Source of the DNA: a virus
Reading direction: 5' to 3' (one strand)
Length of the DNA: 59,594 nucleotides
Virus record (IMG/VR): IMGVR_UViG_3300021057_000001
Span: 1-59,594 of that record
The position numbers and the translations under genes are program-made. The first letter of the stretch is position 1, and each line of letters begins with the position of its first letter. This document shows positions 26,891 to 49,993 of this stretch, in pieces. The notes beneath the pieces were generated by a model, which did not search any database, was not told where the DNA came from, and saw only the letters and a program-made list of their open reading frames with translations.

Positions 26891-26900
26891 GATCGCCCCG
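26891..26900 (+). promoter_or_regulatory. Late element copy 1 (GATCGCCCCG)
   Basis: It ends 27 nt before the GTG of the putative small terminase. It is one of 11 copies of RATCGCCCCG-like sequence, ten of them at 25-32 nt from a late-gene start. Confidence 0.6.
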
Positions 26901-26927
26901 ATTCCGCGCAGTTGCGACGCTGCGGAG

Positions 26928-27332
26928 GTGAGCGAAAAGAAGGTCTACGGCGCCGCCGCGGATCCGACGAAGCGGTTCCAGCCCGGCGTTAGCGGGAACC
27001 CCAAGGGCCGGGCCAAGGGCATCGAGACGATCGCCCGCGCGTTCCTGAATGGCCGCACGTACACGGACTCCAAGGGAATCGAGCACAAGGGTGCCGACGC
27101 GCTGCTCTGCTTCCTGTGGGAAATCGCCGAGGACAAGAAGGCGAACGATCGCGATCGCGTCGTTGCGATCCGCGAGTTCTTTGACCGCAGCTTCGGCAAG
27201 GCGCAACAGAACGTCTCGATCACCGACAGCGCCACCGACGACGAGGACGAGAGCGACCTCGAGGGGCTATCGATCGACGAGCTCCGCGTGCTCGCCAAGG
27301 TGCGCGCGGCACGCGATGGCACCGTCCACTGA
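26928..27332 (+). CDS. Putative terminase small subunit (DUF5681-like), 134 aa
   Basis: RFQPGVSGNPKGRAKG is the hallmark of DUF5681, a family usually found directly before large terminase genes. The rest is helical with an acidic C-terminal stretch (TDSATDDEDESDLEGLSIDE). It is expected to recognise phage DNA and regulate the motor. It starts with a GTG at 26928 and overlaps terL by 17 nt. Confidence 0.75.
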   Translation: MSEKKVYGAAADPTKRFQPGVSGNPKGRAKGIETIARAFLNGRTYTDSKGIEHKGADALLCFLWEIAEDKKANDRDRVVAIREFFDRSFGKAQQNVSITDSATDDEDESDLEGLSIDELRVLAKVRAARDGTVH

Positions 27333-28917
27333 AACGAGCCTGGCCGCAGAGCGTCAGCGCGCGCTGAGGCGCCTGCTGCGGCTGTCGTTCGCTGACTTCG
27401 CGGCCTACTTCTGGCCGCGGATGACCGGCCTTGCGTGGCCGGACAACACCGCGACGCGGGCCCTGACGTCGGCGCTGCAGTCGGTCGCCGATGGCCGGAT
27501 CTGGCGGCTGCTCGTCGCGATCTCCCCGGGCATCGGCAAGTCGACGATGCTCGCGCTGTACTCCGCGTGGCGCCTGGCTCGTCGCGCGGACTGGCGTGCG
27601 CTGCACGCGATGGCGGCGTCGACGGACGCGAACCGCGAATCGCTGCGCGTGAGACGCCTGGTGCAACACGAGGATTTCGCGCGGCTGTTCCCGCACGTGG
27701 TGCTCGCCGAGGACGAGCAAACCGTGCAGTCGTGGGCGACGACGAAGGGAGGCAGGTACTACGCGCTCGGCACCGACACCGCGATCACTTCTAAGCGCGT
27801 GCTTGAGATCGTCGTCGACGACCCGATGTCGGCGCTCGACCGGCACTCGAAGGCCGAGCGCGATCGGGTATGGATGTGGCTCGACGAGGCTGCCACGTCG
27901 CGCCTCGACGGCGATCGCGCCCCGGTGATCATCGTCGCCCAGCGCCTGGACCGCGACGACATCCACGCGCGATGCCTCGGCAGCTCGAATCAGTGGGTCA
28001 TGCTCGAGCCGGCCGCCGAGCGCGACGGACGAGGCCTCGAGCTGCGCGACCACGCCGGCGATCTCGTGTGGAGCGACGACCGCGCGCCCGACGAGTTGAT
28101 CGCGCCGCAGATGTTGTCGCGCGAGAAGCTCGCCGGCTTCTCCAAGGCGGTGCGGACGACGCAGTATCAGCAGCGCCCCGACGAGAGCGGCGGCGGTGCG
28201 ATCGCGCGGGACGCCTGGCGGTTCCACGCTCCGGCGGGCGCAAACCCCAACGCGCCGCGGCCGCGGGGATGCGCGACACAGGATGTGTCGCCGACCGTTG
28301 AGACGCCAGCATCGTTCAGCCACATCGTGATCTCGCTCGATCCGACGTTCGGCGGGACGAAGACGCAGAACGACTTCGCGAGCGCGCAGGTCTGGGGCGC
28401 ATCGGGATCGGGGCGCTACCTGCTCGCTCGATGGAAGAAGCGATCGAAGCAACGCGAGCAGAGGTTTGCGCTGAAGGCGTTCCGCGAGCGCTTCCCCGAC
28501 TCGACGATCATCATCGAGAAGGCCGCCGGCGGCGAAGGCATGGCGGAGGAGCTCGAGGCCGAGACGCCGCCGGTGAAGCGAATCGAACTGATCACCGTCG
28601 GGACGCACACCGGCGGCAAGGCCGCGCGGCTCGACAACGTAAGCCCGACGATCGAGCAGGGCTTCGCGTACCTACCGATCGGGATGCCCGAGCTACAGGA
28701 CTTCGTGGACGAGCTCGCCGGCATGACGCCGCATGACGACGACATGGACTCGTGCTCGCAGGCGCTGCACTGGTTAAACATGAAGGCGGGCAAGCCGAAG
28801 CCGGTGCCCCAAGGCGGCTCGCGCGGCACGGCATCAACGGTAGTTGCTGCGGCGCCCGTCGCTCAATCTGCGCCGTCCATCTACGCCGCGATCGGCGCCG
28901 CCGCGCGCCCGAGGTGA
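27316..28917 (+). CDS. terL: Terminase large subunit, 533 aa
   Basis: The ATPase half has Walker A SPGIGKST (about residues 69-76) and a Walker B-like VLEIVVDDPMS. The nuclease half has VISLDPTFGGTKTQND (Asp near 340), STIIIEKAAGGEG and a final acidic cluster PHDDDMDS. It cuts and pumps DNA into the prohead. The Ala/Pro-rich C-terminal tail is variable. Length and order are standard. The ATG at 27316 is chosen because the upstream frame is antisense to the small terminase. Confidence 0.93.
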   Translation: MAPSTETSLAAERQRALRRLLRLSFADFAAYFWPRMTGLAWPDNTATRALTSALQSVADGRIWRLLVAISPGIGKSTMLALYSAWRLARRADWRALHAMAASTDANRESLRVRRLVQHEDFARLFPHVVLAEDEQTVQSWATTKGGRYYALGTDTAITSKRVLEIVVDDPMSALDRHSKAERDRVWMWLDEAATSRLDGDRAPVIIVAQRLDRDDIHARCLGSSNQWVMLEPAAERDGRGLELRDHAGDLVWSDDRAPDELIAPQMLSREKLAGFSKAVRTTQYQQRPDESGGGAIARDAWRFHAPAGANPNAPRPRGCATQDVSPTVETPASFSHIVISLDPTFGGTKTQNDFASAQVWGASGSGRYLLARWKKRSKQREQRFALKAFRERFPDSTIIIEKAAGGEGMAEELEAETPPVKRIELITVGTHTGGKAARLDNVSPTIEQGFAYLPIGMPELQDFVDELAGMTPHDDDMDSCSQALHWLNMKAGKPKPVPQGGSRGTASTVVAAAPVAQSAPSIYAAIGAAARPR

Positions 28918-28926
28918 TTCGCCCCG
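28917..28926 (+). promoter_or_regulatory. Late element copy 2 (ATTCGCCCCG)
   Basis: It overlaps the terL stop and ends 32 nt before the portal ATG. It shares the core TCGCCCCG with the other copies. Confidence 0.5.
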
Positions 28927-28958
28927 CCGCGCCAGCGTCGGCCACTGTTTCGCCAGAG

Positions 28959-30353
28959 ATGGCGAACGCTGGCCGATTCCAGAAGGGCGACGATCCGCGG
29001 CGCCACACGCCCGTCGCGAAAGCCAAAGGCGCCCCCGGCTCGACCGGCGTCATCTCATACAGCGGCTACCTCCAGTCCAGCGAGCCCGGCGAGATCACCG
29101 GCCGCCAAAAGTGGATCGAATACTCCAGAGCCTGGGCGCATCCGCCCGTCGCGATCTGGGCGATCCTCCGCTCGGCGCTGCTCTCCGGGATGAAGTGGTC
29201 ACTGACGGAGAATCCCGCCGGCGGCGCACAGGCGAAGCGCGGCGTCGAGATCGTCCAGCAGGGGTTGCTCGACGCGCGGCTTTCGCGCCCGTGGCCGCAG
29301 ATTGTCGCGAAGGCGCTGCTCGCCGACGCGAACGGGTTCTCGCTCCACGCGACGGCGCTGGGCCGCCGCAAGGACGGGCTCGTCGTCTACACCGACATCG
29401 CGCATCGCCCGCCGCACACCGTCGAGAAGTGGCTGCGCAAGGTCGAGAACGACGAGACCACGCCGTTTGTCGCCGTCGAGCAGACGACCGCGAGCGGCAA
29501 GCGGTTCCCGGTTCCGCTCGACGAGTGTCTGTATCTCGTCAGCGACACGCTGACCGACTCGCCCGAGGGTGCCGGGTTCCTGCGACTCGTCGCCGAGCGT
29601 CTTCGGAGGATCTCGAAGTACGAGCGGCTCGAAGGCTCGGAGCTGTTCTCTTCGATGGGGGGCACACCGATCGCGCGCGCGCCGCTCGAGGAAATCGCGA
29701 AGCACGCAGCGCAGCAGCCGGGCGCGACGGACGCGACCATCACCGCGGCGATCTCGAGCGCGACGACGGCGATCGAGACCGCGGTGTCAGAGCGGATCAA
29801 GACGCCCGACGTTCAGCAGTACCTGAAGCTCGACTCGGCGACGTACAAGGGCGAGAACCCGGACACGATCTCGTCGACGCAGAAGTGGGCGATCGAGACG
29901 GTGAAGGGCGAACTGCAGGGGCTGCCCGAGATCCGCAAGATCATCGCCGACCTGACGCTTGACGTCGCCCGCATGCTCGGCGTCGAGTTCGCGTTCATCG
30001 GCGGCGGCGACACCAGCGGGACGCAGGCGCTCCACGAGTCCAAGACCTCGGTCTTCGCGCAGTCGCTTCAGGCCGGCGCGGCGCGTGTCGCGCAGTCAGC
30101 GGATCAGCAGCTCGTGCGGCGGCTCGTCCGCGCGAACGGGCTCGATCCGGACGTCGCCGCACCGTACCTGACGCCGGCGGCAATCTCGTCGAAGGACGTC
30201 GAGAAGGTCGCTAGGGCTCTTGGTCTGCTCAACATGGCCGGCCTGGCGCCGAACCACCCGGCGAAGATCGCGATGTTCGAGGCGCTGGAGCTGCCGTGGC
30301 AGGACGAGGCGGCAGGGCTGATGTTGCCGACGAGCGGAGGGGGATTCCCATGA
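28959..30353 (+). CDS. Portal protein (DUF935-like), 464 aa
   Basis: The length, the position after terL, and blocks such as KWIEYSRAWAHPPVAIWAIL, LYLVSDTLTDSPEGAGFLRL and TLDVARMLGVEFAFIGGGDT fit the DUF935/SPP1-type portal family. The portal forms the dodecameric ring through which DNA passes. An N-terminal Gly/Lys-rich arm (GRFQKGDDPRRH) precedes the fold. The ATG at 28959 is chosen; the frame is open further upstream inside terL. Confidence 0.85.
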   Translation: MANAGRFQKGDDPRRHTPVAKAKGAPGSTGVISYSGYLQSSEPGEITGRQKWIEYSRAWAHPPVAIWAILRSALLSGMKWSLTENPAGGAQAKRGVEIVQQGLLDARLSRPWPQIVAKALLADANGFSLHATALGRRKDGLVVYTDIAHRPPHTVEKWLRKVENDETTPFVAVEQTTASGKRFPVPLDECLYLVSDTLTDSPEGAGFLRLVAERLRRISKYERLEGSELFSSMGGTPIARAPLEEIAKHAAQQPGATDATITAAISSATTAIETAVSERIKTPDVQQYLKLDSATYKGENPDTISSTQKWAIETVKGELQGLPEIRKIIADLTLDVARMLGVEFAFIGGGDTSGTQALHESKTSVFAQSLQAGAARVAQSADQQLVRRLVRANGLDPDVAAPYLTPAAISSKDVEKVARALGLLNMAGLAPNHPAKIAMFEALELPWQDEAAGLMLPTSGGGFP

Positions 30354-30895
30354 GCCAACTCCTCACCTTCGCCAACACGGCGACCGCGACGATCTACGGC
30401 TCGCTCGCCGGCTGCCTGGCCTACCTCGGCGCGCGCACGACTGATTGGAATGCCGTCGCCACGGACGAGACGCTCTGGCGCTTGCTCGTCCAGGCGCGCG
30501 ACCTGATCGACGCGCAGTCGTGGTCGTCTGCGTACGACACGTTCGCCGAGCGCGACGCGCTGGACCTCGGCACGGGATCGGGGGATGCCGCGTTCCCGTT
30601 CCGCGCCGCGGCGTACTTGCTGGCCGAGATGGGCCGCACGGATCCCTCGGTGCTGTCCGGCGCCGTCGAGAGCAACGTCTCTAGCATCAGCGACGGCAGC
30701 GCCAGCGTCAGCTACTTCTCTCCCAAGAGCCTCGCGCGCGGGACCGTGACGATCTTCCCGAAGCGGGTGATGGATCTGATCGGCGCGTACCTCGCGAAGA
30801 CGAACCTCGGCGGCCCGCAGGGCGGCACGTCTGTCTCTGGCTCCGACGCGAACCCGTTCGACGAGGCCACCGACTTCGAGCCGGACGACGTATGA
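30350..30895 (+). CDS. Head-tail connector/adaptor (DnaT-like phage family), 181 aa
   Basis: LLTFANTATATIYGSLAGCL, DETLWRLLVQARDLIDAQSW and ERDALDLGTGS follow the layout of the phage family called DnaT-like ssDNA-binding, whose members sit after portal genes and act as head-tail adaptors. The ATG at 30350 overlaps the portal stop. Confidence 0.7.
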   Translation: MSQLLTFANTATATIYGSLAGCLAYLGARTTDWNAVATDETLWRLLVQARDLIDAQSWSSAYDTFAERDALDLGTGSGDAAFPFRAAAYLLAEMGRTDPSVLSGAVESNVSSISDGSASVSYFSPKSLARGTVTIFPKRVMDLIGAYLAKTNLGGPQGGTSVSGSDANPFDEATDFEPDDV

Positions 30896-31275
30896 GCGAC
30901 CTCGGCAAGCTCGTCGCGCAACACCTTGGCTCTGTGGCCGAGACCGGCTACGGCGCGATCACGCTCTCGCGCAAGACGGCGGGGACGTGCAACGCCAGCA
31001 ACGTCACCGCAGGCAACGCGCCGACTTCGGTCGACTACCCGTGTCGCGGTCGGCTCTCGTCGCGACAGTCCACCGTCGTCGTGGGCGGCACGTACACGCG
31101 CGTGCAGACGCCGACGATCGTGATCCTGCGCGACTCGCTCCCCGTCGGTGTCCGTCCAAAGGTCGGCGACACGGTGACGCGAACTGGGACCACGTATCGA
31201 GTCCTCGAAGGCGGCACGTCGCGCGGCGGCAGCGAGGCCACCTACGAGTGCGCGGTCTCCGCGCCGGGCGGGTGA
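30892..31275 (+). CDS. Putative head-closure protein, 127 aa
   Basis: A small beta-rich protein (TVVVGGTYTRVQTPTIVILR, PKVGDTVTRTGTTYRVLEGG), with the size and strand pattern of stopper or head-closure proteins. Position between adaptor and minor head protein supports this, but the family is not certain. The ATG overlaps the upstream stop. Confidence 0.6.
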   Translation: MSDLGKLVAQHLGSVAETGYGAITLSRKTAGTCNASNVTAGNAPTSVDYPCRGRLSSRQSTVVVGGTYTRVQTPTIVILRDSLPVGVRPKVGDTVTRTGTTYRVLEGGTSRGGSEATYECAVSAPGG

Positions 31276-31278
31276 CGC

Positions 31279-32730
31279 GTGAGTGAGCGCGACATGCGCA
31301 GGCTCAAGGCGCTGCTCGAGAAGCGGCTCGGGCTGTCATGGGCGGATATCACCGAGTGGCTCCGCGAGCAGAATTCCGTCGAGGAGATCGAGCGCCGTCT
31401 TGCGACCGGCCAGTGGGGCGAGCTCGTTCAAGGTGTCGACGCTGCGGGCAAGAAGCTCGCCGACGATCTGCACCAGGCGTACGTAGTCGCCGGGCAGACG
31501 CAGGCTGAGTGGCTCGACCGTCAAGAGCGGCTCGCCGACACGCTGGCTCGGTTCGACACCGGCCAGGCTGCCGTCGTCGATCGCCAGCGACAGAGCGAGG
31601 TCAAGCTCGTCGGCGCTATCACCGAGGAGAGCCGCACCGTCGTGCGGCAGATCCTCGTCGACGGCCGGCTCGCCGGCGAGCACCCGCGCGACATGGCCCG
31701 GCGGTTGGCCCCTGTCGTGCGCGACTCGATCGGGCTGACGCCGTCGCAAGAGAAATGGGTCTCGAACTACCGCCGCGCGCTCGAACAAGGCGACTACGCG
31801 CGCGCGCTCGGCTACGAGCTGTCGAGCGGGAACGCGGATCGCACAGTTCAGTCGGCGCAGAGCCGCGGTAAGGCCCTCAGCCCCGCGCGGATCTCGGAGA
31901 TGGTCGACGCGTACCGGCGCAACGCGATCGCGTACCGGGCCGAGACGATCGCGCGGACCGAGGCGCAAGGCGCAGCCGAGGCAGGCGCTCAGGATGCGCT
32001 GCGGCAGGCCGTCGACCGCGGCAACGTGAAGGCGGAGGAGTTGATCGTCATGTGGCATGCCGGGCCGGGAACGGCCGACGCGCGCGAGATGCACCAGGCG
32101 ATGGACGAGAAGACGGTGCGGTTCGGCGAGGACTTCATCCTGCCCGACGGGACGGCGATGCGGGGGCCGCACGACTCGCGCGGCGGCGCGCGTCATAACG
32201 CGTCCTGCCGGTGCACGTCGAGCACGACGATCGATCTGGACCGGGCACCGGAGATCGATCTGGATGTACCTGCAGCGGCGCCTGTACCAGTACCTGCGGC
32301 GACCGTCGAGGAGCCACCCGCGCAGCCCAAGAACCCCAGGCGCGTGGCTGCCGCAAGGCTCGCCGCTGCGGCATCGGTCGAGCGGCGACGCGAGATCCAC
32401 TCGGCGGCGCGCAGCAATCTTCCTCCAGAGTTGCACGTAGTCTGGGACAAAGAGGGCCACAAGTTCATGAGGGAAGAGGCCGCCCGGATCCGTGGGGTCA
32501 AAGACCGCGTGAACGCGTCGTCCACGCTCTCTCAGGCGTTCGCGGAGAAGTACGGCTCAGGCGCTGAGACCGCGTTCGGCAACGAAGGCGATCGGTACTT
32601 CCGGCGCGCCGAGCTCGAGGCAGAGCACGCGATATCGTGGGCCGACGAGCAGGAACGGAAGTACTACGCCGAGGCCGAGGCGGCGGCAGCGCGCGGAGAA
32701 TTGAACGACGACGACGATGTGCCCTTCTGA
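31279..32730 (+). CDS. Minor head/head-morphogenesis protein (Mu gpF-like), 483 aa
   Basis: Residues 150-330 carry the gpF pattern: IARTEAQGAAEAGAQDALRQ, VMWHAGPGTADAREMHQAMD and GGARHNASCRCTSS. This protein joins the prohead near the portal. A C-terminal extension of about 150 residues ends in NDDDDVPF, closely resembling the acidic tip of SSB proteins. The GTG at 31279 is chosen. The extension may recruit DNA-processing partners or be ejected with DNA; this is speculation. Confidence 0.82.
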   Translation: MSERDMRRLKALLEKRLGLSWADITEWLREQNSVEEIERRLATGQWGELVQGVDAAGKKLADDLHQAYVVAGQTQAEWLDRQERLADTLARFDTGQAAVVDRQRQSEVKLVGAITEESRTVVRQILVDGRLAGEHPRDMARRLAPVVRDSIGLTPSQEKWVSNYRRALEQGDYARALGYELSSGNADRTVQSAQSRGKALSPARISEMVDAYRRNAIAYRAETIARTEAQGAAEAGAQDALRQAVDRGNVKAEELIVMWHAGPGTADAREMHQAMDEKTVRFGEDFILPDGTAMRGPHDSRGGARHNASCRCTSSTTIDLDRAPEIDLDVPAAAPVPVPAATVEEPPAQPKNPRRVAAARLAAAASVERRREIHSAARSNLPPELHVVWDKEGHKFMREEAARIRGVKDRVNASSTLSQAFAEKYGSGAETAFGNEGDRYFRRAELEAEHAISWADEQERKYYAEAEAAAARGELNDDDDVPF

Positions 32731-32743
32731 TACGATAGGCGCG

Positions 32744-33019
32744 ATGGTCGGCGACGACAGGCACGCGGCGATCCTGCGCAGAGTTGCGCTGGTCGCTCTC
32801 GACGAAGCCCAGGCGGCGCAGCGGCTGGCGCAAGAGGCTCCGAGTGAAGGTCTCACGCGCGCAGCGTTCCGTGCATGCGTGTTCGCGCGTCGCGCTCTGC
32901 TCCGGGCGTCCGAGGTGCAGTCGGACAGCCGCAAGGAAACGAAGATGATCGAGCTGTCCATGGTGATGGCCGAGGCCGCCGAGGCGTTGAGCGCCAGTCT
33001 CGTTCGTTTCGCAGGGTAG
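32744..33019 (+). CDS. Hypothetical helical protein, 91 aa
   Basis: Helices AILRRVALVALDEAQAAQRL and RAAFRACVFARRALLRASEV suggest a small helical bundle. TACGATAGG just before the ATG at 32744 is similar to the box before the tape-measure gene. It lies in the head block. The role is unknown. Confidence 0.6.
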   Translation: MVGDDRHAAILRRVALVALDEAQAAQRLAQEAPSEGLTRAAFRACVFARRALLRASEVQSDSRKETKMIELSMVMAEAAEALSASLVRFAG

Positions 33020-33039
33020 TTCGCGCGCCACTGCGGCTG

Positions 33040-33049
33040 AATCGCCCCG
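33040..33049 (+). promoter_or_regulatory. Late element copy 3 (AATCGCCCCG)
   Basis: It ends 30 nt before the ATG of the protease gene, in a 60-nt intergenic gap. Confidence 0.6.
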
Positions 33050-33079
33050 CCGCTCCTGAACCCTGAGACTGGGTTCCAG

Positions 33080-33514
33080 ATGAGCGAGCCCCTTCGAAAG
33101 ATCGAGACCTCGGTCTGCAAGGTCGATCGAAAGCTCGGGCTCGTCTTCATGCGCGCCATTGTCTGCAAGATCGACGGCGAGCCGTACTACGACCTCGGCT
33201 CGGTCGACGAAAGCACCGGCGAAGCGTACGCGGACCACATCTCCGAGGAGGAGATGCTGGAAGCCGTCACCGACTTCATGCTCAAGGCGCGAACCGTCAA
33301 GGCCATGCACGCCGGCGGTTCGCGCGGCGTCGTCGTCCACTCCTGGCCCGAGACGGCCGAGACGGCGAAGGCGTACGACGAGCCCGCGCCGCGGATCACC
33401 GGCTGGAAGGTTGCCGTCAAGGTCGACGACGACCTGCTCGCGAAGCTCGAGAGCGGCGAGATGACCGGCAGCTCGATCGGCGGCCGGGCGCAGCGCGAGA
33501 AGGAGTCGACGTGA
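33080..33514 (+). CDS. XkdF-like prohead protease, N-terminal part, 144 aa
   Basis: ISEEEMLEAVTDFMLKARTV, GVVVHSWP and ITGWKVAVKVDDDLLAKLES followed by GSSIGG match the core of the XkdF-type (peptidase S78-like) phage protease, which trims scaffold and capsid. The family normally continues with a segment ending in SLVDRPA; here that segment (LVIDELSIVDRPC) is in the next, overlapping frame. The protein therefore appears split into two overlapping ORFs, or is joined by frameshift. Confidence 0.75.
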   Translation: MSEPLRKIETSVCKVDRKLGLVFMRAIVCKIDGEPYYDLGSVDESTGEAYADHISEEEMLEAVTDFMLKARTVKAMHAGGSRGVVVHSWPETAETAKAYDEPAPRITGWKVAVKVDDDLLAKLESGEMTGSSIGGRAQREKEST

Positions 33515-34398
33515 TCGAGTCCAACAAGAACAAGCTGCCCAAGGCGCGGCTCGGGAAGCTCGTGATCGACGAGTTGTCGATCGTCGATCGGCCCTGCGTC
33601 GAGCCGGCGACCGTGATGCTGATGAAGCGCGCTACCGACGACGAATCGCACGCAGCGGCACACGAATCGCCCCGTCCGCCGGCCCTCACTAGAAAGGTAT
33701 CCACCATGACGCTCGATGAAGCCCTCGCGGAGATCAAGGACCTGAAGGCCAAGCTCGCCGAGCTCGACAAGTCCAAGGAGGATCTCGAGGAGATCAAGGA
33801 CGAGGCCGAGAAGCGCGCGACCATGACCGACGCGCAGCGCGCGCACTACAAGACGCTCGACAAGGCGGACGCCAAGGCGTTCCTCGCGAAGTCGGCAAGC
33901 GAGCGCGACGCGGACGTAACGAAGCGCCTCGCGGGCGATCCGGTCGAGGTCGAGTTCAACGGCGTCGAGTACCGCAAGAGCTCGGGCCCGGCCGTCATCG
34001 AGCTCGCGAAGGCGGCGAAGGCGCAGGCCGAGCAGCTCGCCAAGCGTGACAACGAGATCAAGAAGGCGCGCATCCGCAAGGCGGCGTCGGAGATCCTGAA
34101 GAACGCGCCCGGCACCGACGCGACGCACGACTTCATCGTCGAGCAGCTCGAGGGCAACGCAGACGCGATGGCGACCCTGAAGGGCCTCGTCGCCACCTCG
34201 TCGATCGGCAAGTCGGCGGCGGGCGCCGGCGGCGAGGCAATCGTCGACACCGGCCCGCAGGCCGAGTTCGACGCGCTCGTCGCCAAGCACGTCGAGATCC
34301 ACAAGTGCGACGCCGGCACGGCGCGGCTCGCGGTCACCAAAACCGAACGCGGTCGCGCTCTCTACGGAGAGATCGAGCTGCTCAAGAAGCGTCGCTAA
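33511..34398 (+). CDS. Protease C-terminal segment fused to scaffold, 295 aa
   Basis: The GTG at 33511 overlaps the protease stop (GTGA). The first 45 residues (ARLGKLVIDELSIVDRPC, then ATVMLMKRA) are the usual end of XkdF proteases. From residue 66 on it is a coiled-coil, Lys/Glu/Ala-rich scaffold-type protein. It contains its own late element and an internal ATG (33706), so two products are likely. This resembles nested scaffold genes such as lambda Nu3. Confidence 0.7.
   Translation: MIESNKNKLPKARLGKLVIDELSIVDRPCVEPATVMLMKRATDDESHAAAHESPRPPALTRKVSTMTLDEALAEIKDLKAKLAELDKSKEDLEEIKDEAEKRATMTDAQRAHYKTLDKADAKAFLAKSASERDADVTKRLAGDPVEVEFNGVEYRKSSGPAVIELAKAAKAQAEQLAKRDNEIKKARIRKAASEILKNAPGTDATHDFIVEQLEGNADAMATLKGLVATSSIGKSAAGAGGEAIVDTGPQAEFDALVAKHVEIHKCDAGTARLAVTKTERGRALYGEIELLKKRR
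33665..33674 (+). promoter_or_regulatory. Late element copy 4 (AATCGCCCCG), inside an open reading frame
   Basis: It is located within the 33511-34398 frame and ends 31 nt before the internal ATG at 33706. That is the same geometry as the intergenic copies, which argues that the internal start is used. Confidence 0.6.
33706..34398 (+). CDS. Nested scaffold protein, 230 aa
   Basis: The start is the internal ATG at 33706, preceded by AGAAAGG at Shine-Dalgarno distance and by late element copy 4. The protein opens with a heptad-rich helix (TLDEALAEIKDLKAKLAELD), has a short strand region (VEVEFNGVEYRKSSG) and ends in a basic helix (GRALYGEIELLKKRR), a typical scaffold layout. It would be made in excess over the protease-fused form and guide capsid assembly. 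Confidence 0.65.
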   Translation: MTLDEALAEIKDLKAKLAELDKSKEDLEEIKDEAEKRATMTDAQRAHYKTLDKADAKAFLAKSASERDADVTKRLAGDPVEVEFNGVEYRKSSGPAVIELAKAAKAQAEQLAKRDNEIKKARIRKAASEILKNAPGTDATHDFIVEQLEGNADAMATLKGLVATSSIGKSAAGAGGEAIVDTGPQAEFDALVAKHVEIHKCDAGTARLAVTKTERGRALYGEIELLKKRR

Positions 34399-34404
34399 GG
34401 GCCA

Positions 34405-34414
34405 CGTCGCCCCG
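34405..34414 (+). promoter_or_regulatory. Late element copy 5 (CGTCGCCCCG)
   Basis: It ends 39 nt before the ATG of the decoration gene, the largest spacing of the set. That gene also has a GGAGCAAG ribosome site. Confidence 0.45.
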
Positions 34415-34453
34415 TCAACACCATCGACCTGACCCACATCACGGAGCAAGACC

Positions 34454-35443
34454 ATGACCACCGCGAACGCCGTCGAGCAGGACCCGCACTACATCGAGAT
34501 TCCCGCAGGTTCGAATCTCTCGTCGTACCAGTACCGCTTCATGACCAACACGAGCGGTCAGGCGGCGCTGCCGTCGTCCGGCGGTGCGGTCATCGGCGTG
34601 CTGACGAACGATCCGGACGCCGCCGACAAGCCGGCCACGATCCAGTACTCGGGCATCGCACTCGTGCTCGCGGCGGGCTCGATCACAGCGGGCGGCAAGG
34701 TGCAGTCCGACGAGAACGGCAAGGCCGTCGCTCAGTCCGGCACCGGCATCCCGGCCGGCTGGGCGATGAAGACCACCGCGGCAGACGAGTACTGCCCGGT
34801 CCTCCTGGCGAACCAGGCAGGCGTCGCCGCCGTGACGAGCGAGGAGACGGTGACGAGCGGTGCGCTGTCGCTGAATCCGCAGTTCACCTACCTCTCGGTC
34901 ACCGGCACGCAGGCGTACACGCTCGCGGCCGGCACCTACGTCGGCCAGCGGAAGATCATCGAGTGCACGGTCGCTGCGAGCACGCCGGTCGGCACGCTGA
35001 CGCTCGCCGACGCCTACGGCACCGAGCCCCTGACTCACGTGTTCCGCGCGGTCGGCCAGAAGCTCGTGCTCGAGTGGCGCACCGGTGGCTGGAAGGTCCT
35101 CGACAAGAAGCGCGCCGGCGCGATGACGGTCGTCGTCGGCACCACGGTGCTCACCGGCGAGGACATGGTCTATCGCTACGAGCTGTCGGTGACCGGCACC
35201 GTCGCGTCGGACAGCACCAAGGGAATCCCCGACGGTCTCGTCGCCGGCGAGACGATCGACGTGCAGGTCACGACGGCCGCGTCCACGCCCGATGGCGAGA
35301 TCAACATCACCGCCGAGGATCTCGACGGTGCCGCAGCCACGAAGATCGACACGATCGACGGCACCACCAGCCACATGTTCCGCGGGATGTGGACCGGCCT
35401 CAAGTGGCAGACGGTCGCCATCACCGGAGTCGTCCTCGCGTAA
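34454..35443 (+). CDS. Head decoration/fibre protein (DUF2190-like N-terminus), 329 aa
   Basis: The first 125 residues (EIPAGSNLSSYQYRFMTNTS, VIGVLTNDPDAADKPATIQY, ITAGGKVQSDENGKAV) follow the DUF2190 pattern of capsid decoration proteins. The remaining 200 residues are beta-rich, repeat-like Thr/Ala/Val segments that could form a surface domain. It lies directly before the major capsid gene, as is usual. Confidence 0.75.
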   Translation: MTTANAVEQDPHYIEIPAGSNLSSYQYRFMTNTSGQAALPSSGGAVIGVLTNDPDAADKPATIQYSGIALVLAAGSITAGGKVQSDENGKAVAQSGTGIPAGWAMKTTAADEYCPVLLANQAGVAAVTSEETVTSGALSLNPQFTYLSVTGTQAYTLAAGTYVGQRKIIECTVAASTPVGTLTLADAYGTEPLTHVFRAVGQKLVLEWRTGGWKVLDKKRAGAMTVVVGTTVLTGEDMVYRYELSVTGTVASDSTKGIPDGLVAGETIDVQVTTAASTPDGEINITAEDLDGAAATKIDTIDGTTSHMFRGMWTGLKWQTVAITGVVLA

Positions 35444-35448
35444 CCGGG

Positions 35449-35458
35449 CATCGCCCAG
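35449..35458 (+). promoter_or_regulatory. Late element copy 6 (CATCGCCCAG)
   Basis: A degenerate copy, ending 25 nt before the major capsid ATG. The region after it (CAACACCAACCGGAGCAA) resembles the one before the decoration gene, including a GGAGCAA ribosome site. Confidence 0.45.
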
Positions 35459-35483
35459 CAACACCAACCGGAGCAACTGAGCC

Positions 35484-36470
35484 ATGACCCGTCCCACTTC
35501 CGCCGATGCCCACGTCGCCCAGGTCATCACCGACTGGGCGATCGCCTACGCCAACGAAGCCACGTCGTACAAGTGCGACTTGCTGTCGCCGAACGTCCCC
35601 TCATCGAAGCGAGAGGCGAAGTTCTACACCTACGACAAGGCGCCGTGGTTCACGGACGAGATGCAGAAGCGCGGCGAGGGCGCTCCAGTCCCGATGTCGG
35701 GCTACACGCTCTCGACCACGCTGTTCGAGATCGACACGTGGTCGCTCGGCAAGCCGATCGACGACCAGGCCCGCGACAACGAGGACGACATCCTCGACTC
35801 CGACGAGGACGCCGCGCGCTTCCTGATGGAGAAGGAGCGCATCCGTCGCGAGAAGGCGTTCGCCGCGGCCTGCCTCGCGACCTCGAAGTGGTCGCTCGAC
35901 GTGACCGGCAACACGTCGGCGTCTGACTACACCGCGAACACGGTCGCGCAGTGGGACGACTCGGACTCGAACCCGCTCGTCGACATCGCGACCTACAAGA
36001 CGCGGATGAAGCTCGCGACGGGCCTGGATCCGAACGTCTTCGTCTGTGGCCGCCAGGTCTGGGACATCGTCAAGAACCACGCCGACATCACCGACCTGCT
36101 CAAGGGCGGCGCAACCACGGCCAACCCCGCGAAGGTCACGCAGCAGGCGGTCGCCGCGCTGTTCGAGCTCGAGGACATCATCGTGATGGACGCGGTCGAG
36201 AACACGGCCGCGGCACCGAAGGCGATGACCGGCGCGTTCATCGCGGGCAAGCACGGCCTGCTCATGCATCGCAACATGAACGCGGGCCGCAAGGGTGCGA
36301 CCGCGGTCAAGACCATCACCTGGAAGCGCCCCGGTACCGACGCGCGCGGCTTCCGCATGCTGAAGTCGGCGATCGACATCCACCGCGATCTGGTCGAGGT
36401 CGAGTCGAACTTCACGGTGAAGATCTGCGCGAGCGACCTCGGCATCTTCTTCAGCGGTCTGGTGGCGTAA
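35484..36470 (+). CDS. Major capsid protein (HK97-like), 328 aa
   Basis: Length, position after scaffold and decoration genes, and blocks such as LSTTLFEIDTWSLGKPIDDQ, NVFVCGRQVWDIVKNHADIT and GRKGATAVKTITWKRPGTDA followed by FRMLKSAIDIHRD are typical of HK97-fold capsid proteins that need no long N-terminal scaffold arm. It would form the icosahedral shell. A good GGAGCAA ribosome site precedes the ATG. Confidence 0.88.
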   Translation: MTRPTSADAHVAQVITDWAIAYANEATSYKCDLLSPNVPSSKREAKFYTYDKAPWFTDEMQKRGEGAPVPMSGYTLSTTLFEIDTWSLGKPIDDQARDNEDDILDSDEDAARFLMEKERIRREKAFAAACLATSKWSLDVTGNTSASDYTANTVAQWDDSDSNPLVDIATYKTRMKLATGLDPNVFVCGRQVWDIVKNHADITDLLKGGATTANPAKVTQQAVAALFELEDIIVMDAVENTAAAPKAMTGAFIAGKHGLLMHRNMNAGRKGATAVKTITWKRPGTDARGFRMLKSAIDIHRDLVEVESNFTVKICASDLGIFFSGLVA

Positions 36471-36473
36471 GTC

Positions 36474-36848
36474 ATGACTCGCCGGCGCCCCAGGGAGCGC
36501 CGCGAGTACCGCGCGGGCGAGCCGCTGATCGCGCGGCAGCCGCTGCAGTTCTCGGGGCAGAAGGTCGCGGCACGCGCTGTCGTGCCCGAGTCGATGTTCT
36601 CGTCCGAGCGCAAGCGGATGACGATGTGGCGGGCGAAGAAGGTCGACCACGAGCGCGACTTGCCCGCAAAGAAGTCTCCGCCGTCTCCGTCGCAGGCTGC
36701 GCCGGCCACCCCCTCCGAGGCCACGGTGCAGTCGCCGGAGGCGGCGGCGGTTGTCGTCGCGACCAGCGACGAGCAGCTCGCCGACGCCGAGCTCGAGAAG
36801 CTGACGGACCCCAAGCCCAAGGCTGACCGCCGTGGGCGAAGCCGCTGA
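36474..36848 (+). CDS. Hypothetical basic/Pro-rich head protein, 124 aa
   Basis: The N-terminus is Arg-rich, the middle is Ser/Pro/Ala-rich and the end is DEQLADAELEKLTDPKPK, LEM-like in appearance. Disordered structure is likely. Its place after the capsid gene suggests a neck or head completion role, but no family is recognised. Confidence 0.6.
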   Translation: MTRRRPRERREYRAGEPLIARQPLQFSGQKVAARAVVPESMFSSERKRMTMWRAKKVDHERDLPAKKSPPSPSQAAPATPSEATVQSPEAAAVVVATSDEQLADAELEKLTDPKPKADRRGRSR

Positions 36849-37242
36849 TCGCCTCCAGGCGAAGCTGTACTCGCTGATCGAGCGCGCCGCGAAGGCGCTG
36901 ATCCTCGAAGTCAACCGCGAGCTGCGGAAGCGGGGCACCGGAACGCCGGTCGACACCGGCCACGCGCGCGCTTCGTGGATTCCCGCGGTCGGTGCGCCTA
37001 CGCTGCTCGAGCCGGTCGGTGCAGATAGCTCGCTCGCGGCCGCCGGCGCTGCACGGGTGATGGCCTTCAAGCTCGGGCAGGGGATGCTGTTTATCTCCAA
37101 CGTCGCGCCGTACATCTCGAGGCTCAACGCTGGGCACTCGAAGCAGGCGCCAGCGCTGTTCGTCGAGCGCGCGATCGCGGCGGCCATCGCGACGATCAAG
37201 GCGAAGACCGGCGTCGATTTCGGCTCCGTCACGGCGCTCTGA
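36832..37242 (+). CDS. HK97 gp10-like tail/neck protein, 136 aa
   Basis: GTPVDTGHARASW, followed by ISNVAPYISRLNAGHSKQAP and FVERAIAAAIATIKAK, is the standard pattern of gp10-like tail-completion or head-tail joining proteins. It starts with a GTG at 36832 inside the end of the upstream gene. Confidence 0.82.
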   Translation: MGEAADRLQAKLYSLIERAAKALILEVNRELRKRGTGTPVDTGHARASWIPAVGAPTLLEPVGADSSLAAAGAARVMAFKLGQGMLFISNVAPYISRLNAGHSKQAPALFVERAIAAAIATIKAKTGVDFGSVTAL

Positions 37243-37251
37243 TTCGCCCCA
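37242..37251 (+). promoter_or_regulatory. Late element copy 7 (ATTCGCCCCA)
   Basis: It ends 27 nt before the GTG of the tail terminator. The DNA after it reads GCGGCGACGCTCTCTAC directly before the start, sharing its second half with the tail-tube leader, and has no Shine-Dalgarno. Confidence 0.5.
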
Positions 37252-37278
37252 CCTGGGTCGTGCGGCGACGCTCTCTAC

Positions 37279-37692: not shown

Positions 37693-37696
37693 CGGC

Positions 37697-37706
37697 AATC
37701 GCCCCG
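37697..37706 (+). promoter_or_regulatory. Late element copy 8 (AATCGCCCCG)
   Basis: It ends 30 nt before the tail-tube ATG, in a 44-nt gap. GCGGCACGCTGTCTCTACC follows and no Shine-Dalgarno is present. Confidence 0.6.
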
Positions 37707-37736
37707 TCCTCGTCGTAGCGGCACGCTGTCTCTACC

Positions 37737-39275: not shown

Positions 39276-39652
39276 ATATGAAGGGCAAGACCATCAAGCT
39301 GACGATCGACACCGGCGCGTACGAGCTCGGGCCGGTGCCGCCGAACACGCGCGTCGTGATCGAAGCGGGCTACCTGTTCGCTGGCGGCGCGCGCACGCTG
39401 ATCAATGAGGCGCTGCTCAAGACCGACGACGGCGCGGCGAGCAATCGCGCCGTGCTGGAACGGATCGCGGAGCGCGTCGTCGTGGCGTGGTCCGTCAGCG
39501 AGAAGCTCGATCGCGCGGCCGTCTCTCAGTTCCTGCTCGCGCTGTACGAGGAGCACGCCGATGCGGCGCTCGCGTTCTCGAAGGCGCTCGCCGACAAGAC
39601 ACGGTTCGCGCTGCCCACCCTCGTCGATGCGGAGGCGCTGGGGGAAGGGTAG
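39272..39652 (+). CDS. Tail assembly chaperone, short form (gpG-like), 126 aa
   Basis: A small helical protein starts at a GTG at 39272 overlapping the tail-tube stop. It ends at a TAG immediately after the slippery tract GGGGGAAGGG. Its place between tail tube and tape measure and the following -1 frame identify it as the G-type chaperone that coats the tape measure during tail assembly. Confidence 0.8.
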   Translation: MNMKGKTIKLTIDTGAYELGPVPPNTRVVIEAGYLFAGGARTLINEALLKTDDGAASNRAVLERIAERVVVAWSVSEKLDRAAVSQFLLALYEEHADAALAFSKALADKTRFALPTLVDAEALGEG

Positions 39653-40017
39653 CGGCCTGGCTCCAGTGGGAGCGCGAAGCCTCGCCGCACCTGCGACAGA
39701 TGCGCCTGTGGAACCGGACCCGCGAACAGATGGGACCGGAGGCGCGTGCGATCTTCGCGCGTCAGCCTGAGCAAGACGAGGCGATGGGCGTCGTGCTGAT
39801 GGCATGGGGCGACCTGTCGACGTGCCGGCCCGTCGGCATGGTCGAGGGCCGGATCCCGTGGGACAAGGCGAAGGACTGGGGAATCGAAAACGGCCTCGAT
39901 GTCGACGAGCGGCGCCTGCTGTGGCGCGTGATCCAGCGGCTCGACATCGAGGAGATGGACCGTCGCGCCTTCGAGGCGAGGACGGATCGCCCCGCTCAGC
40001 CATCGCCGCGACGATAG
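39272..40017 (+). CDS. Tail assembly chaperone, frameshifted long form (gpGT-like), about 248 aa
   Basis: The second part (39646-40017) has no usable start near its beginning but is clearly coding (WLQWEREASPHLRQMRLWNR, WDKAKDWGIENGLDVDERRL). It lies in the -1 frame relative to the short form and joins it at CTG GGG GAA GGG TAG. P-site GGG can re-pair perfectly after a -1 slip. Programmed -1 frameshifting at this exact place in the tail operon is well established in lambda and many siphoviruses. The tract is not a perfect XXXYYYZ heptamer. Confidence 0.75.
39985..39994 (+). promoter_or_regulatory. Late element copy 9 (GATCGCCCCG)
   Basis: It lies inside the last codons of the chaperone long form and ends 26 nt before the tape-measure ATG. 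It is followed by CGCGACGATAGGAC; there is no Shine-Dalgarno. Confidence 0.55.
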
Positions 40018-40020
40018 GAC

Positions 40021-41475
40021 ATGTCCGACTACGACATCGTGATCAAGCTCGACCCAGGACAGCCCGTCCAGGGCGCGAAGCAGGTGACCGCCGCGGTCGC
40101 CGGCCTTGAGGCACAGGGCAAGAAGGCGAAAGAGGCCATGGACGGCGCCGCCAGTGCCGCCAGGTCGCTGAAGTCGATCGACTTCAAGCAGGCCGCCGCG
40201 GCCGGCGCCCAGGCGTGGGGCATCCTGTCGCAGAAGTTCGAGCTGGGGAACACCCTGCTCGGCAAGGCGATCGACTCGACGGTGAAGTTCGCGGCCCTCG
40301 GCGCGCAGCTCGGCGGCCCGTGGGGCGCGGCCCTCGGCGCGATCGCCGGCGGACTGATCGAGGTCACCGACAACATCACGGGCCTGCGTTCGGAGGTCAC
40401 GAAGCTGGCCGAGGAGTCGAAGAAGCTGGCCGAGGACCACATCGCGAAGATGGGCGGCAGGCTCGGCGAGCTCGCGCGCGAGGCGAAGAAGACGGCCGGC
40501 GAGCTGAAGGAGATGAACGACGGCCTGTATGCGCTGCCCGGCGCGCTGGCTGCGACGTTCGATGCGTTCAACAAGGAGCGCGACGTCGTCAAGCGGGCGC
40601 GCGAGGAGATCGAGAAGTACAACGCGGCGAAGTTCGCGGCGTCGCCGCAGGGGAACGCGCTGAAGGGGTTCTCGGGCGGCGTCATGGGGCGCGAGGCGAA
40701 GCCGACGGCTGGCGGGGAGCGCCAGTACTACAACGGGCTCTCGCCGCTCGACTTCGCGCCGAGCCCGGCGCGCACGCCATACATGGGGCTCGGCGAGCGT
40801 GCGGACGGAGGGACTGGGCCGTACGCGGTCAACGTGACCGAGCAGCACGATCTCCAGGGGATCGCCCTCGACAACCTGAACACGAAGATCAAAGCGAACG
40901 CCGACGAGACCCTCCTCCTCGCCGCCAACACCCGCACATGGCGTCAGGAGCTCGCCGCGTCCAACACCGTCCTCCTGGCCGTGGTCGACGGTATCAAGCA
41001 GGCAGGTGCTTCGTTCGTCGACACGCTCGTCGATGGCGCGTTCGGCGCCGACGTGAGCTGGAAGCGGTGGGGCGAGGACATGCTCAAGATGTTCGCGAAG
41101 CTGATCCTCCAGGCGTCACTCCTCAAGGCGATCGGCTCACCGACGGGCGGCGTCGGCGGCACCGCGACCGGACTGTACAAGCTGCTCGGCTTCGCCAGCG
41201 GCGGCGTGATCATGCCGTCCGGCGGCGGCACGGCGGACACGCAGACCGTGGCGTTCCGCAAGAGCCCGAGCGAGACCGTGCACATCAACACGCCGGCGCA
41301 GGAAGCCGCGTACCGCAACGGGGGCGGTGGCGGCGGGCCCGTGAACTTCCAGATCGTGAACACCCCCGTCGACGACCGCGCGCTACTCCAGGCATTCAGC
41401 AGCCCCGCGGGAACGCAGACGTTCCTGAACCAGGTCCGCGCCAACCGCGGCGCGATCAAGGCGCTCCTCGAGTAG
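40021..41475 (+). CDS. Tape measure protein, 484 aa
   Basis: It comes after the chaperone pair and has an Ala-rich helical N-terminal half, a central hydrophobic segment (WGAALGAIAGGLIEVTDNIT) and the usual C-terminal block (FASGGVIMPSGGGTADTQTV, FRKSPSETVHINTP). Tape length sets tail length at about 0.15 nm per residue, so the tail should be only about 70 nm, short for a siphovirus. The ATG is at 40021. Confidence 0.82.
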   Translation: MSDYDIVIKLDPGQPVQGAKQVTAAVAGLEAQGKKAKEAMDGAASAARSLKSIDFKQAAAAGAQAWGILSQKFELGNTLLGKAIDSTVKFAALGAQLGGPWGAALGAIAGGLIEVTDNITGLRSEVTKLAEESKKLAEDHIAKMGGRLGELAREAKKTAGELKEMNDGLYALPGALAATFDAFNKERDVVKRAREEIEKYNAAKFAASPQGNALKGFSGGVMGREAKPTAGGERQYYNGLSPLDFAPSPARTPYMGLGERADGGTGPYAVNVTEQHDLQGIALDNLNTKIKANADETLLLAANTRTWRQELAASNTVLLAVVDGIKQAGASFVDTLVDGAFGADVSWKRWGEDMLKMFAKLILQASLLKAIGSPTGGVGGTATGLYKLLGFASGGVIMPSGGGTADTQTVAFRKSPSETVHINTPAQEAAYRNGGGGGGPVNFQIVNTPVDDRALLQAFSSPAGTQTFLNQVRANRGAIKALLE

Positions 41476-41482
41476 CGGCGGG

Positions 41483-41492
41483 AATCGCCCCG
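41483..41492 (+). promoter_or_regulatory. Late element copy 10 (AATCGCCCCG)
   Basis: It ends 27 nt before the GTG at 41520. The 15-mer GGAATCGCCCCGCGG is identical in copy 11. Confidence 0.6.
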
Positions 41493-41519
41493 CGGTGCTC
41501 TCCCCGAGACCCTACATGG

Positions 41520-42431
41520 GTGAGGCCAGACGGCTCTAGGCTCGGCGCGAACGTCGGATTCGGGTACCTGACCGATGACGACGATGACGACGCGTCGGGC
41601 GGGACCGGCGGCGACCTGTTCGACGCGCTGATCCCGACCTGGGACGCGACGCGGAACGTGTCGCAGAACTCGACGTTCACGCTGGCGATCACCGCGAACA
41701 GCGCACAGACGAACGGCGTCGTTGTCGTGAAGGTCAGCGATCTGGACGACGGGCGCGGCGGATCGGCCATCACGATTTCGACTGCAGCGCTCGACGGCTG
41801 GACGCAGACCGGCTGGTCGCGAAGTGGTGGGTTCTGGACGAACACGCTGACTCGTTCGAGCGTGGCGAGCGGGACCACGGCGCCGAGCTTCACGTTCACG
41901 TCTTCGGTAGCCGGCACGTGCACGATCTCGACGAGCTCGACCGCGCCACAGACCACCCAGGCCATCGGCGGCGGCCAGGCGCGCACGACGGTGTTCGGCG
42001 CGGCGGCGGCGTTCGAGGCGGTGCCCGCGCTCGTCGGCGCGTCGCTGCCCGGCGACTTCAAGGCGACGATCACCTGCACGGGCGTCGCGCAGACCAACGG
42101 CTACGTGTTCATGGCCGGCAACTTCAGCGCCACGCCGGTGTTCGCGACCGTCTCGCTCGATGGCTGGTCGGAGAGCGGCTGGACGCAGATCGATACGGGC
42201 AACGTTCCGTACGAGACCGACGGTACGCCCGAGTACACGCACTACAACATTCTGACCCGCACGAACGTGCCGGTGGGAACCACCGAACCGACATGGACGC
42301 TGTCCCTCGTCCTGTCGTCGCCGGGCTCGCCCTACACGATCCGCTCTCTCCAGATCGGACCGCCGACGTTGCTGCCGCACACCGATCAGGCCACGGGCGG
42401 CGGCGCGTCGCTGTCGTCGGCATACGCATAG
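41520..42431 (+). CDS. Tail-associated beta-rich protein with duplicated domain, 303 aa
   Basis: Two similar blocks of about 115 residues can be seen: NVSQNSTFTLAITANSAQTN followed by VVVKVSDLDDG and LDGWTQTGW, then PGDFKATITCTGVAQTNGYV with LDGWSESGWTQ. Both are all-beta. A run of six Asp residues precedes them. The start is the GTG at 41520; a nearby ATG (41516) leads to an immediate stop. It probably decorates the tail or binds a surface receptor. Confidence 0.68.
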   Translation: MRPDGSRLGANVGFGYLTDDDDDDASGGTGGDLFDALIPTWDATRNVSQNSTFTLAITANSAQTNGVVVVKVSDLDDGRGGSAITISTAALDGWTQTGWSRSGGFWTNTLTRSSVASGTTAPSFTFTSSVAGTCTISTSSTAPQTTQAIGGGQARTTVFGAAAAFEAVPALVGASLPGDFKATITCTGVAQTNGYVFMAGNFSATPVFATVSLDGWSESGWTQIDTGNVPYETDGTPEYTHYNILTRTNVPVGTTEPTWTLSLVLSSPGSPYTIRSLQIGPPTLLPHTDQATGGGASLSSAYA

Positions 42432-42441
42432 GAGCCCACGC

Positions 42442-43476
42442 ATGCAGCGCATTGTCCAAAGCGAATCGACCGCCGCGCGGCGCCGCGTGTACTTCACCGC
42501 GGTCAAGGTCGACGACGTCACCGACGACCTGGTGACCGCGGAGATCGGGACGTGGGTCGTCAAGATCTCGAAGAACGGCGCCGACGCTGCGGCTCCGAGT
42601 GGCTCGACGGTCACCGAGGTCGACTCCACCGACTTCCCCGGCCTCTGGTACTGGGAGGGCAACGCCGCCGACTTCGACACGCTCGGCGTGCTCCTGGTCC
42701 GCATCACGAACACCAGCGGCTCGAAGGTGATGCGCTCGAGGTCGATCCTCGTGCACGTCGTCGCGAGCGATTCGATCTACGTGACGCCGCCGGCGGACAT
42801 CAAGAAGGTCGACGGCACCGCGATCCCGACGCCGACGACTGCCGGCGTGCTCCGCGTCGACGTCAAGGCGATGGAGACGGGCGTGCTAACGAACACGGCC
42901 ATCGCCTCCGACGCCATCAGCGCCGCGAAGGTCGCCGACGGCACGATCGATCTCGCCACGTTCGCAGCCGACGCACTGCTCTCCGCCTTCGGTATCGCGA
43001 ACATGGGCACGGCGCAGGCCGGCTCGACGGGTACGACTCTGAAGCTCGCCAACGCGGCGTCCTCCAGCGACGACCGCTACCTGAACGGCGTCGTGCTGAT
43101 CACCGGCGGCACCGGCGCCGGGCAGATCAATCAGATCTCGGACTACGTCGGCGCCACGCGCGTCGCCTCCGTCGCGCAGACGTGGGCCACGACGCCCGAC
43201 GCCACCTCGGTCTATGTCATCTACGCTGGCGGCGCGGCGTCGAGCGCTCCGAGCGCGGCGACCGTCGCGACCGAGGTCTGGGCCAAGGTGCTGGAGGGCT
43301 CGCACACCTCGGCGGACCTCATGCGCCTGTTCGCGTCGGCGCTGCTGGCGATGGCGAGCGGCTGGTCGACCGGAACGCTCGTGTTCCGCGACCTCGCGAA
43401 CACCAAGAACCGGTTCGTGTCCGTCGTCGACGAGGACGTCGGTCGCACGAGCCTCTCCATCCTCGACGCGACGTAG
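42442..43476 (+). CDS. Tail structural protein, 344 aa
   Basis: The first 115 residues (RRRVYFTAVKVDDVTDDLVT, KISKNGADAAAPSGSTVTEV, RSRSILVHVVASDS) resemble N-terminal attachment domains of baseplate upper or fibre proteins. The rest is Ala/Thr/Ser-rich (TAIASDAISAAKVADGTIDL, VVLITGGTGAGQINQISDY). It is probably a fibre or distal tail part. The ATG is at 42442. Confidence 0.65.
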   Translation: MQRIVQSESTAARRRVYFTAVKVDDVTDDLVTAEIGTWVVKISKNGADAAAPSGSTVTEVDSTDFPGLWYWEGNAADFDTLGVLLVRITNTSGSKVMRSRSILVHVVASDSIYVTPPADIKKVDGTAIPTPTTAGVLRVDVKAMETGVLTNTAIASDAISAAKVADGTIDLATFAADALLSAFGIANMGTAQAGSTGTTLKLANAASSSDDRYLNGVVLITGGTGAGQINQISDYVGATRVASVAQTWATTPDATSVYVIYAGGAASSAPSAATVATEVWAKVLEGSHTSADLMRLFASALLAMASGWSTGTLVFRDLANTKNRFVSVVDEDVGRTSLSILDAT

Positions 43477-45473: not shown

Positions 45474-45475
45474 CT

Positions 45476-49614: not shown

Positions 49615-49904
49615 AAGCACTCGAGGAACAGGCGAACTGCGGGCGGTCCCGGGGCGAGCTGGCAGCAACCCCGGTGGCCGTCGGCATCCGTGAAGGTTCT
49701 TGGGCACTCGATGGGGTCCGACGGGCACGGGGGCGGCCCCTCGCAGAACGCCGTACAACTAGGGCCGTTCTCGGTGGGGTTCTCGACGCACGCACGCGAG
49801 CACATCTCGTCGCCAACACCGCACGAGACGCGGTCGTGTGGGCTGGGATCGGCACCATCCCCCGCGCACCCCGCCGCCGCCGCGAGCACCAGAAGTACCC
49901 TCAT
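49611..49904 (-). CDS. Cys-rich lipoprotein (moron), 97 aa
   Basis: RVLLVLAAAAGCAGDG gives a lipoprotein signal with Cys at the cleavage site. The mature part has about twelve cysteines (SCGVGDEMCSRAC, PSCTAFCEGPPPC, RGCCQL) and resembles exported proteins of myxobacteria. It is encoded against the late genes between tail hub and lysis cassette, the typical place for a moron expressed from its own promoter in the lysogen. It overlaps the hub stop by 4 nt. It may alter the host surface or block superinfection (inference). Confidence 0.7.
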   Translation of the reverse strand: MRVLLVLAAAAGCAGDGADPSPHDRVSCGVGDEMCSRACVENPTENGPSCTAFCEGPPPCPSDPIECPRTFTDADGHRGCCQLAPGPPAVRLFLECF

Positions 49905-49983
49905 GCCCCGATCGTAGCCACGCCCGCCCGCCGCCGCCACTTCGAGAGCTGCCGCACCGCGCTGCACCTGCCGCTTGAGGCGG

Positions 49984-49993
49984 AATCGCCCCG
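49984..49993 (+). promoter_or_regulatory. Late element copy 11 (AATCGCCCCG)
   Basis: It ends 27 nt before the GTG of the first lysis gene and lies 80 bp beyond the divergent lipoprotein start. The element therefore goes with the downstream gene, not with an upstream stop. Confidence 0.62.

Follow-up and report, generated by a model that had tools for sequence, protein, structure and literature searches.

The window analysed here is the whole of a lone IMG/VR virus record (59,594 bases, GC 68%), and it comes from a temperate, siphovirus-like soil phage with genes for a serine integrase, a Prim-Pol/VapE primase, a phrog_1005 major capsid protein and repressor-like HTH proteins. The leftward early block contains genes for two DNA methyltransferases (N6/N4 and C5; 4116-7258, minus strand). 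A PAPS-reductase-family protein is encoded amid the replication genes (16342-17208); in phages, proteins of this family are often tied to DNA modification. Moreover, a HicA/HicB-like toxin-antitoxin pair adjoins the integrase gene (54483-55449, minus strand), with a good sigma-70 promoter (TTGCAT-N17-TACAAT) in front of it. The last gene before the first putative late promoter encodes a double zinc-ribbon protein (26223-26888, plus strand).

Along the late genes, the initial annotation had listed eleven copies of a 10-mer, RATCGCCCCG, and the sequence bears out every one of the 11 positions and of the 11 spacings to the following start. The element is longer than this 10-mer. It is bipartite and consists of RATCG(C/T)CCCG at -35 and, 15-16 nt downstream, a second box, GASGCT, in which the A at the second position (A2) and the T at the sixth (T6) are invariant. 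This -10-like box, and hence the leaderless geometry, had been missed. The full consensus reads RATCG(C/T)CCC(G/T), 15 or 16 nt, G-A-(C/G)-(G/C)-C-T, 6 nt and ATG/GTG. When the window copies are aligned, the pattern xAxxxT starts 25 nt past the 10-mer's first base, and its T is followed 6-11 nt later by the start codon.

The window was scanned with a matrix built from 37 copies of the element in other phages, to which the window itself contributed no sequence. The seven best matches are the listed sites at 41483, 49984, 37242, 26891, 37697, 33040 and 39985, which are all on the plus strand and score 20.7-23.9. The next-best window match reaches 15.4, and 20 Markov shuffles yielded no match of at least 20. 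The exact 10-mer occurs seven times on the plus strand, always 36-41 nt before a start codon and nowhere else on that strand, and twice on the minus strand (24710 and 54885), in neither case before a start. Allowing one mismatch gives 41 matches versus 28 in shuffles, a mild enrichment. As the initial annotation had noted, there is no copy in the leftward early block.

Nine of the eleven listed copies hold up as members of the element, all of them on the plus strand. Copy 1 (26891-26928; matrix score 22.2) has the core GATCGCCCCG at 26891-26900, GACGCT at 26916-26921 and, as its predicted +1, the GTG of the small terminase gene at 26928; an orthologous copy is found before TerS in the relative G001. 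Copy 3 (33040-33080; score 21.6) combines AATCGCCCCG with GAGACT at 33065-33070 and the ATG of a head-protease-like gene at 33080, and copies are also present at the protease orthologues of G002, G394, G007, G391, G392, G393 and G012. In copy 7 (37242-37279; score 22.3), ATTCGCCCCA overlaps the preceding stop codon and is followed by GACGCT at 37267-37272 and by the GTG of the tail terminator gene (phrog_179) at 37279; the orthologous copy in G002 is at 8085. Copy 8 (37697-37737; score 21.9) has AATCGCCCCG, CACGCT at 37722-37727 and the ATG of a tail tube-like protein (phrog_290) at 37737, whose orthologues in G002, G004, G007, G393 and G394 have copies as well. Copy 9 (39985-40021; score 20.7) lies in the end of the gene at 39700-40017, with GATCGCCCCG, GACGAT at 40010-40015 and the tape-measure ATG at 40021, and its orthologous copy in G002 is at 11063. 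Copy 10 (41483-41520) has the best score in the window, 23.9, and consists of AATCGCCCCG, GACCCT at 41508-41513 and the GTG of a tail gene at 41520. Copy 11 (49984-50021; score 23.3) has AATCGCCCCG, GAGCCT at 50009-50014 and a GTG at 50021, which starts the gene at the end of the late block, a gene without a family match. This copy had been described as following a gene on the opposite strand, but no called gene was found between 49614 and 50021.

Two of the nine are weaker members that are backed by orthologous copies in relatives. Copy 2 (28917-28959; score 15.0) has ATTCGCCCCG at 28917-28926, overlapping the TerL stop codon, CACTGT at 28943-28948 and the portal ATG at 28959; portal copies are also found in G007 (57514) and G394 (59710). 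Copy 4 (33665-33706) lies inside the gene at 33511-34398 and has a perfect core (core score 17.0, total 11.5), a weak -10 box (TAGAAA) and the ATG of an in-frame nested scaffold at 33706, and G002, G004, G007 and G394 have an internal copy at the corresponding site.

The remaining two listed sites, likewise on the plus strand, are unsupported. At 34405-34454 (CGTCGCCCCG) there is no -10 box and the start is at +49 with a Shine-Dalgarno (SD) motif, and at 35449-35484 (CATCGCCCAG) the start is at +35 and belongs to the major capsid gene, which has its own SD. Both sites fall outside the 40 best matrix matches and are probably due to chance. The decoration and major capsid genes (34454-36470) differ from their neighbours in having good SDs but no supported element.

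The link between the core and the second box extends to all the phages analysed here. Core sites with a start codon at +35 to +42 have xAxxxT at a gap of 15-16 nt in 45 of 49 cases, the box not having been selected on, compared to 6 of 31 other core sites (Fisher 3e-11, an indicative value since orthologues are not independent). All 45 sites that combine core, box and start are on the late strand, and so are the best matrix-scored sites of each other phage. Moreover, the spacer class and the position of the start covary: at a gap of 15 nt the start is at +37 in 16 of 25 sites, and at a gap of 16 nt it is at +38 in 15 of 20 (P=5e-5, with copies in orthologous genes not being independent events). 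The distance from the final T of the -10 box to the start is 7 nt in 31 of the 45 sites. Thus, the position of the start codon depends on that of the -10 box, which is what transcription beginning at the start would predict.

If the start codon is taken as +1, TCGCCC occupies -35 to -30 and the second box -12 to -7, which is the geometry of a sigma-70 promoter. A2 and T6 resemble the sigma-70 -10 box as well; sigma-70 promoters have such a box at 16-18 bp spacing, and 45 of the 49 sites agree with this. The first position, T in sigma-70 boxes, is G in most copies, and GASGCT is a poor sigma-70 box, which is a point against a promoter. At -35 there is no TTGACA-like sequence but the invariant TCG-CCC, and consensus sigma-70 promoters are absent from 26500-42500 of the window. 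The earlier statement that the element is not sigma-70 is therefore correct for the -35 region, whereas the second box is sigma-70-like in its spacing and in its A2 and T6.

Leaderless genes typically have a -10 box about 6-7 bp ahead of the start, as is the case here, and the starts downstream of the element lack an SD. Only one of eight element genes of the window has an SD core, compared to 61 of 92 other genes, although this contrast is inflated by the simple gene caller, which rewards SD motifs when it assigns starts. In the window, two starts lie at +40 and another two, of weaker copies, at +41/+42; here the mRNAs would be expected to have short leaders of 3-5 nt and not to be strictly leaderless.

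The closest capsid relatives (53% capsid identity), G002 (L002) and G001 (L003), are near-identical contigs of one phage. They carry the element upstream of orthologous genes, where most copies read RATCGTCCCG. Further relatives were found by a DNA pattern built from the window and the G001/G002 phage, and by a tail-tube profile search; the element is present in G004, G005, G006, G007 (83.7 kb), G391, G392, G393 and G394 (76 kb), several of the records of relatives being fragments. A genome scan recovered it in phage contigs of the MAG DP_38, a Deltaproteobacteria bacterium that belongs to the Myxococcota in current taxonomy. The same bipartite element is thus shared by about ten further phage records and one Myxococcota MAG, with 37 copies outside the window, and it is kept before orthologous genes though the proteins are only 27-53% identical. 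From this one MAG, the hosts of the phages carrying the element are probably Myxococcota. A search of the literature found no description of the element.

The combination of core, -10 box and start is absent from 645 kb of major capsid protein (MCP) or tail-tube relatives outside the set, despite 50 core sites, and L004 (45% MCP identity) and 49 other relatives are without the element. A scan of 379 Myxococcota genomes gave three occurrences of the pattern, two in the phage contigs of DP_38 and one chance-like match. A pattern scan of 257 Gb of genomes returned 19 stretches, mostly chance matches, and only L083 (MAG DP_38) is real; 34 stretches from an earlier DNA-pattern search were also mostly due to chance, as they have no repeated copies. 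TerL as a protein query recovered no relatives among viral or genome contigs.

We propose, with a probability of roughly 0.78, that the copies are phage-specific late promoters which yield leaderless or near-leaderless mRNAs. Of the three options of the initial annotation, a phage-specific late promoter, an activator site or a translation signal, the evidence strongly favours the first, possibly combined with an activator that acts at -35. RNA polymerase would be recruited to RATCG(C/T)CCCG at -35 by an activator or specificity factor that the phage encodes, would melt the degenerate -10 box (GASGCT) and would begin transcription about 7 nt past the T of the box, at the ATG/GTG itself or no more than a few nt away from it. 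Structural genes would then be made from leaderless or near-leaderless mRNAs without SD leaders. The copies would fire singly, for terminase, portal, protease, nested scaffold, tail terminator, tail tube, tape measure, distal tail and the last late gene, and the major capsid and decoration genes, which keep their SDs and are without the element, would be read from upstream copies. The bipartite element is seen directly in the sequence, as are its rigid geometry, its presence in about ten other phages, its bias to the late strand and the missing SDs; the transcription start, leaderless translation and the need for a phage factor are what we infer.

It is conceivable, but improbable, that the phages borrow the promoter of a host alternative sigma factor (ECF or other), which would make a phage factor unnecessary. 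The -35/-10 arrangement with a gap of 15-16 nt resembles the sigma-70 family, several divergent phages of probably related hosts have the same element, and no sigma gene was found in the window, G007 or G394. However, the three occurrences in 379 Myxococcota genomes, two of them in phage contigs, mean that the element is not a general host promoter. Moreover, the C-to-T change common to most G001/G002 copies suggests co-evolution with a phage trans-factor; G001 and G002 are 99.98% identical over 8.5 kb, yet their nested-scaffold copies differ at this C/T base of the core (L002:4846, L037:10623). A host sigma-54 promoter is not indicated either, since column counts show no conserved GG or GC at the GG-N10-GC spacing. 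The Pseudomonas phages YuA and M6, siphoviruses of similar genome size, have several copies of a sigma-54 late promoter through the late block, and the likeness to them lies in the repeated use of a special promoter across that block.

The least certain part of the phage-specific promoter proposal is the identity of the trans-factor, for which our best candidate, at somewhat less than even odds, is the double zinc-ribbon protein whose gene immediately precedes that of the small terminase. A profile of the zinc-ribbon proteins of three other phages matches the window gene at 5e-9, and the protein of G001 matches that of the window pairwise at 2e-6. The gene is beside TerS in G001, G394, G007, G393 and G012 as well; it adjoins TerS or sits a few genes before, near the first late promoter. 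It is the sole non-structural, non-replication gene found in all five phages that cover the region (the window, G001, G394, G007 and G393), and DP_38 is the only one of 379 Myxococcota genomes to have it, there too beside terminase genes. This position and co-occurrence would suit a late activator; from position alone, a packaging role is equally possible. The protein has no Pfam or PHROG match above cut-off and no match in annotated phages, a fold search with its model (mean pLDDT 67; 71-89 in the 10-residue blocks from 11 to 90) gave nothing significant, and a search of viral contigs with its profile returned only the already-known phages. Ogr of P2 and Delta of P4 are zinc-finger late activators, and Ogr acts at a dyad near -55. 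The candidate would likewise be a small zinc-binding phage protein that activates late genes, but it has no match to Ogr or, by sequence or fold, to known families, and the element is a single non-palindromic box at -35 rather than a dyad near -55.

Alternatively, the factor could be a protein such as the one encoded directly upstream of the zinc-ribbon gene and TerS in G001 (L037:1371-1985), in which an XRE-type HTH is fused to sigma-70 region 4 (Sigma70_r4, E 9e-19) without region 2. Full-length relatives exist in many IMG/VR phages, and they look like a little-studied regulator family. We consider this doubtful, because the window, G007 and G394, all long records, have no homologue, and because its recognition helix is close to that of housekeeping region 4, which would read TTGACA. 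Above cut-off, sigma region 4 was found only in G001, whereas the window, G007 and G394 gave no such match; a search of the window for region 2 found none. A weak sigma-4 match at 54957-55031 of the window falls in an HTH antitoxin-like gene and was rejected as a sigma factor. The presence of a sigma-region-4 regulator at the position of the candidate factor in G001, and its absence from the others, means that one common factor is not proved.

A signal at the level of translation, in which the 10-mer acts in the mRNA at a fixed distance and recruits ribosomes or a phage translation factor, is in keeping with its position 25-32 nt before the start and with the lack of SD motifs in element genes. 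It is nonetheless very unlikely, since there is a second conserved box, and it is with this box, not with the 10-mer, that the start moves. The nested scaffold speaks against it, too. The arrangement of the window, an in-frame scaffold with an internal element, is shared by G002, G004, G007 and G394. In G004, G007 and G394 the core and the -10 box (TACCGT/TAGCGT) are kept, and the start is exactly at +59 and has AGGAG upstream. An SD is thus present where the start has moved off the predicted +1 while the second box is kept, which argues for a promoter making leaderless or near-leaderless mRNAs. The nested scaffold would then be expressed from a promoter that lies within the protease gene, an arrangement found in five phages.

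Repressor-bound stoperators, asymmetric operators close to gene starts by which the late block would be kept silent in the lysogen as in mycobacteriophage L5, would fit a temperate phage with a serine integrase, repressor-like HTH genes and many oriented copies. But they would not need the rigid geometry with second box and start codon, and the copies lie only before late-strand starts; we give this reading very little weight. Chance, codon bias or linker sequence of mosaic modules, which a GC-rich genome and the mild enrichment of one-mismatch copies might suggest, is least credible of all and already contradicted by the matrix trained elsewhere, which separates seven sites from all other positions, by the box and start statistics and by the control relatives, which have none.

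As late promoters, the copies recall known systems. In T4 middle promoters, a MotA box replaces the -35 region next to a sigma-70 -10 box, together with AsiA (PMC7403470). In the element, too, a box specific to the phages takes the place of the -35 region, and its distance from a -10 box of host-sigma type is like that in sigma-70 promoters, but the box sequence differs. T4 middle mRNAs also have leaders, which is a further difference. Leaderless promoters of Deinococcus-Thermus, where experiments in Deinococcus show that mRNAs are leaderless when the -10 box stands ~6-7 bp ahead of the ORF (PMC12340547), have the same -10-to-start spacing as the window element; however, they serve host chromosomal genes and mostly lack a -35, whereas in the element the -10 is GC-rich and the -35-like box is strong and phage-specific. 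Leaderless genes have been predicted in delta-Proteobacteria, among other groups, in 8 of 33 genomes (PMC3160421). Finally, middle and late mRNAs of the Thermus phage phiYS40 are leaderless (PMC3594737, citing Sevostyanova 2007). There, too, middle and late phage genes lack leaders, a state that is predicted here; host phylum and promoter differ, and the cited passage on phiYS40 describes no RATCGYCCCG -35-like box.

The bipartite pattern of about 40 positions allows further members and hosts to be recognized, and a small, testable candidate factor can be named. The finding would define, from sequence alone, a late-promoter class for a lineage of phages of the Myxococcota, a phylum whose phages are little studied, and it would extend leaderless expression of middle and late phage genes beyond Thermus phages. 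More tentatively, this may be a new class in which a so far unrecognised double zinc-ribbon family, with its gene beside that of the small terminase, redirects Myxococcota RNA polymerase to RATCGYCCCG, so that virion mRNAs would be leaderless and individually promoted and nested scaffolds would be made from internal promoters.
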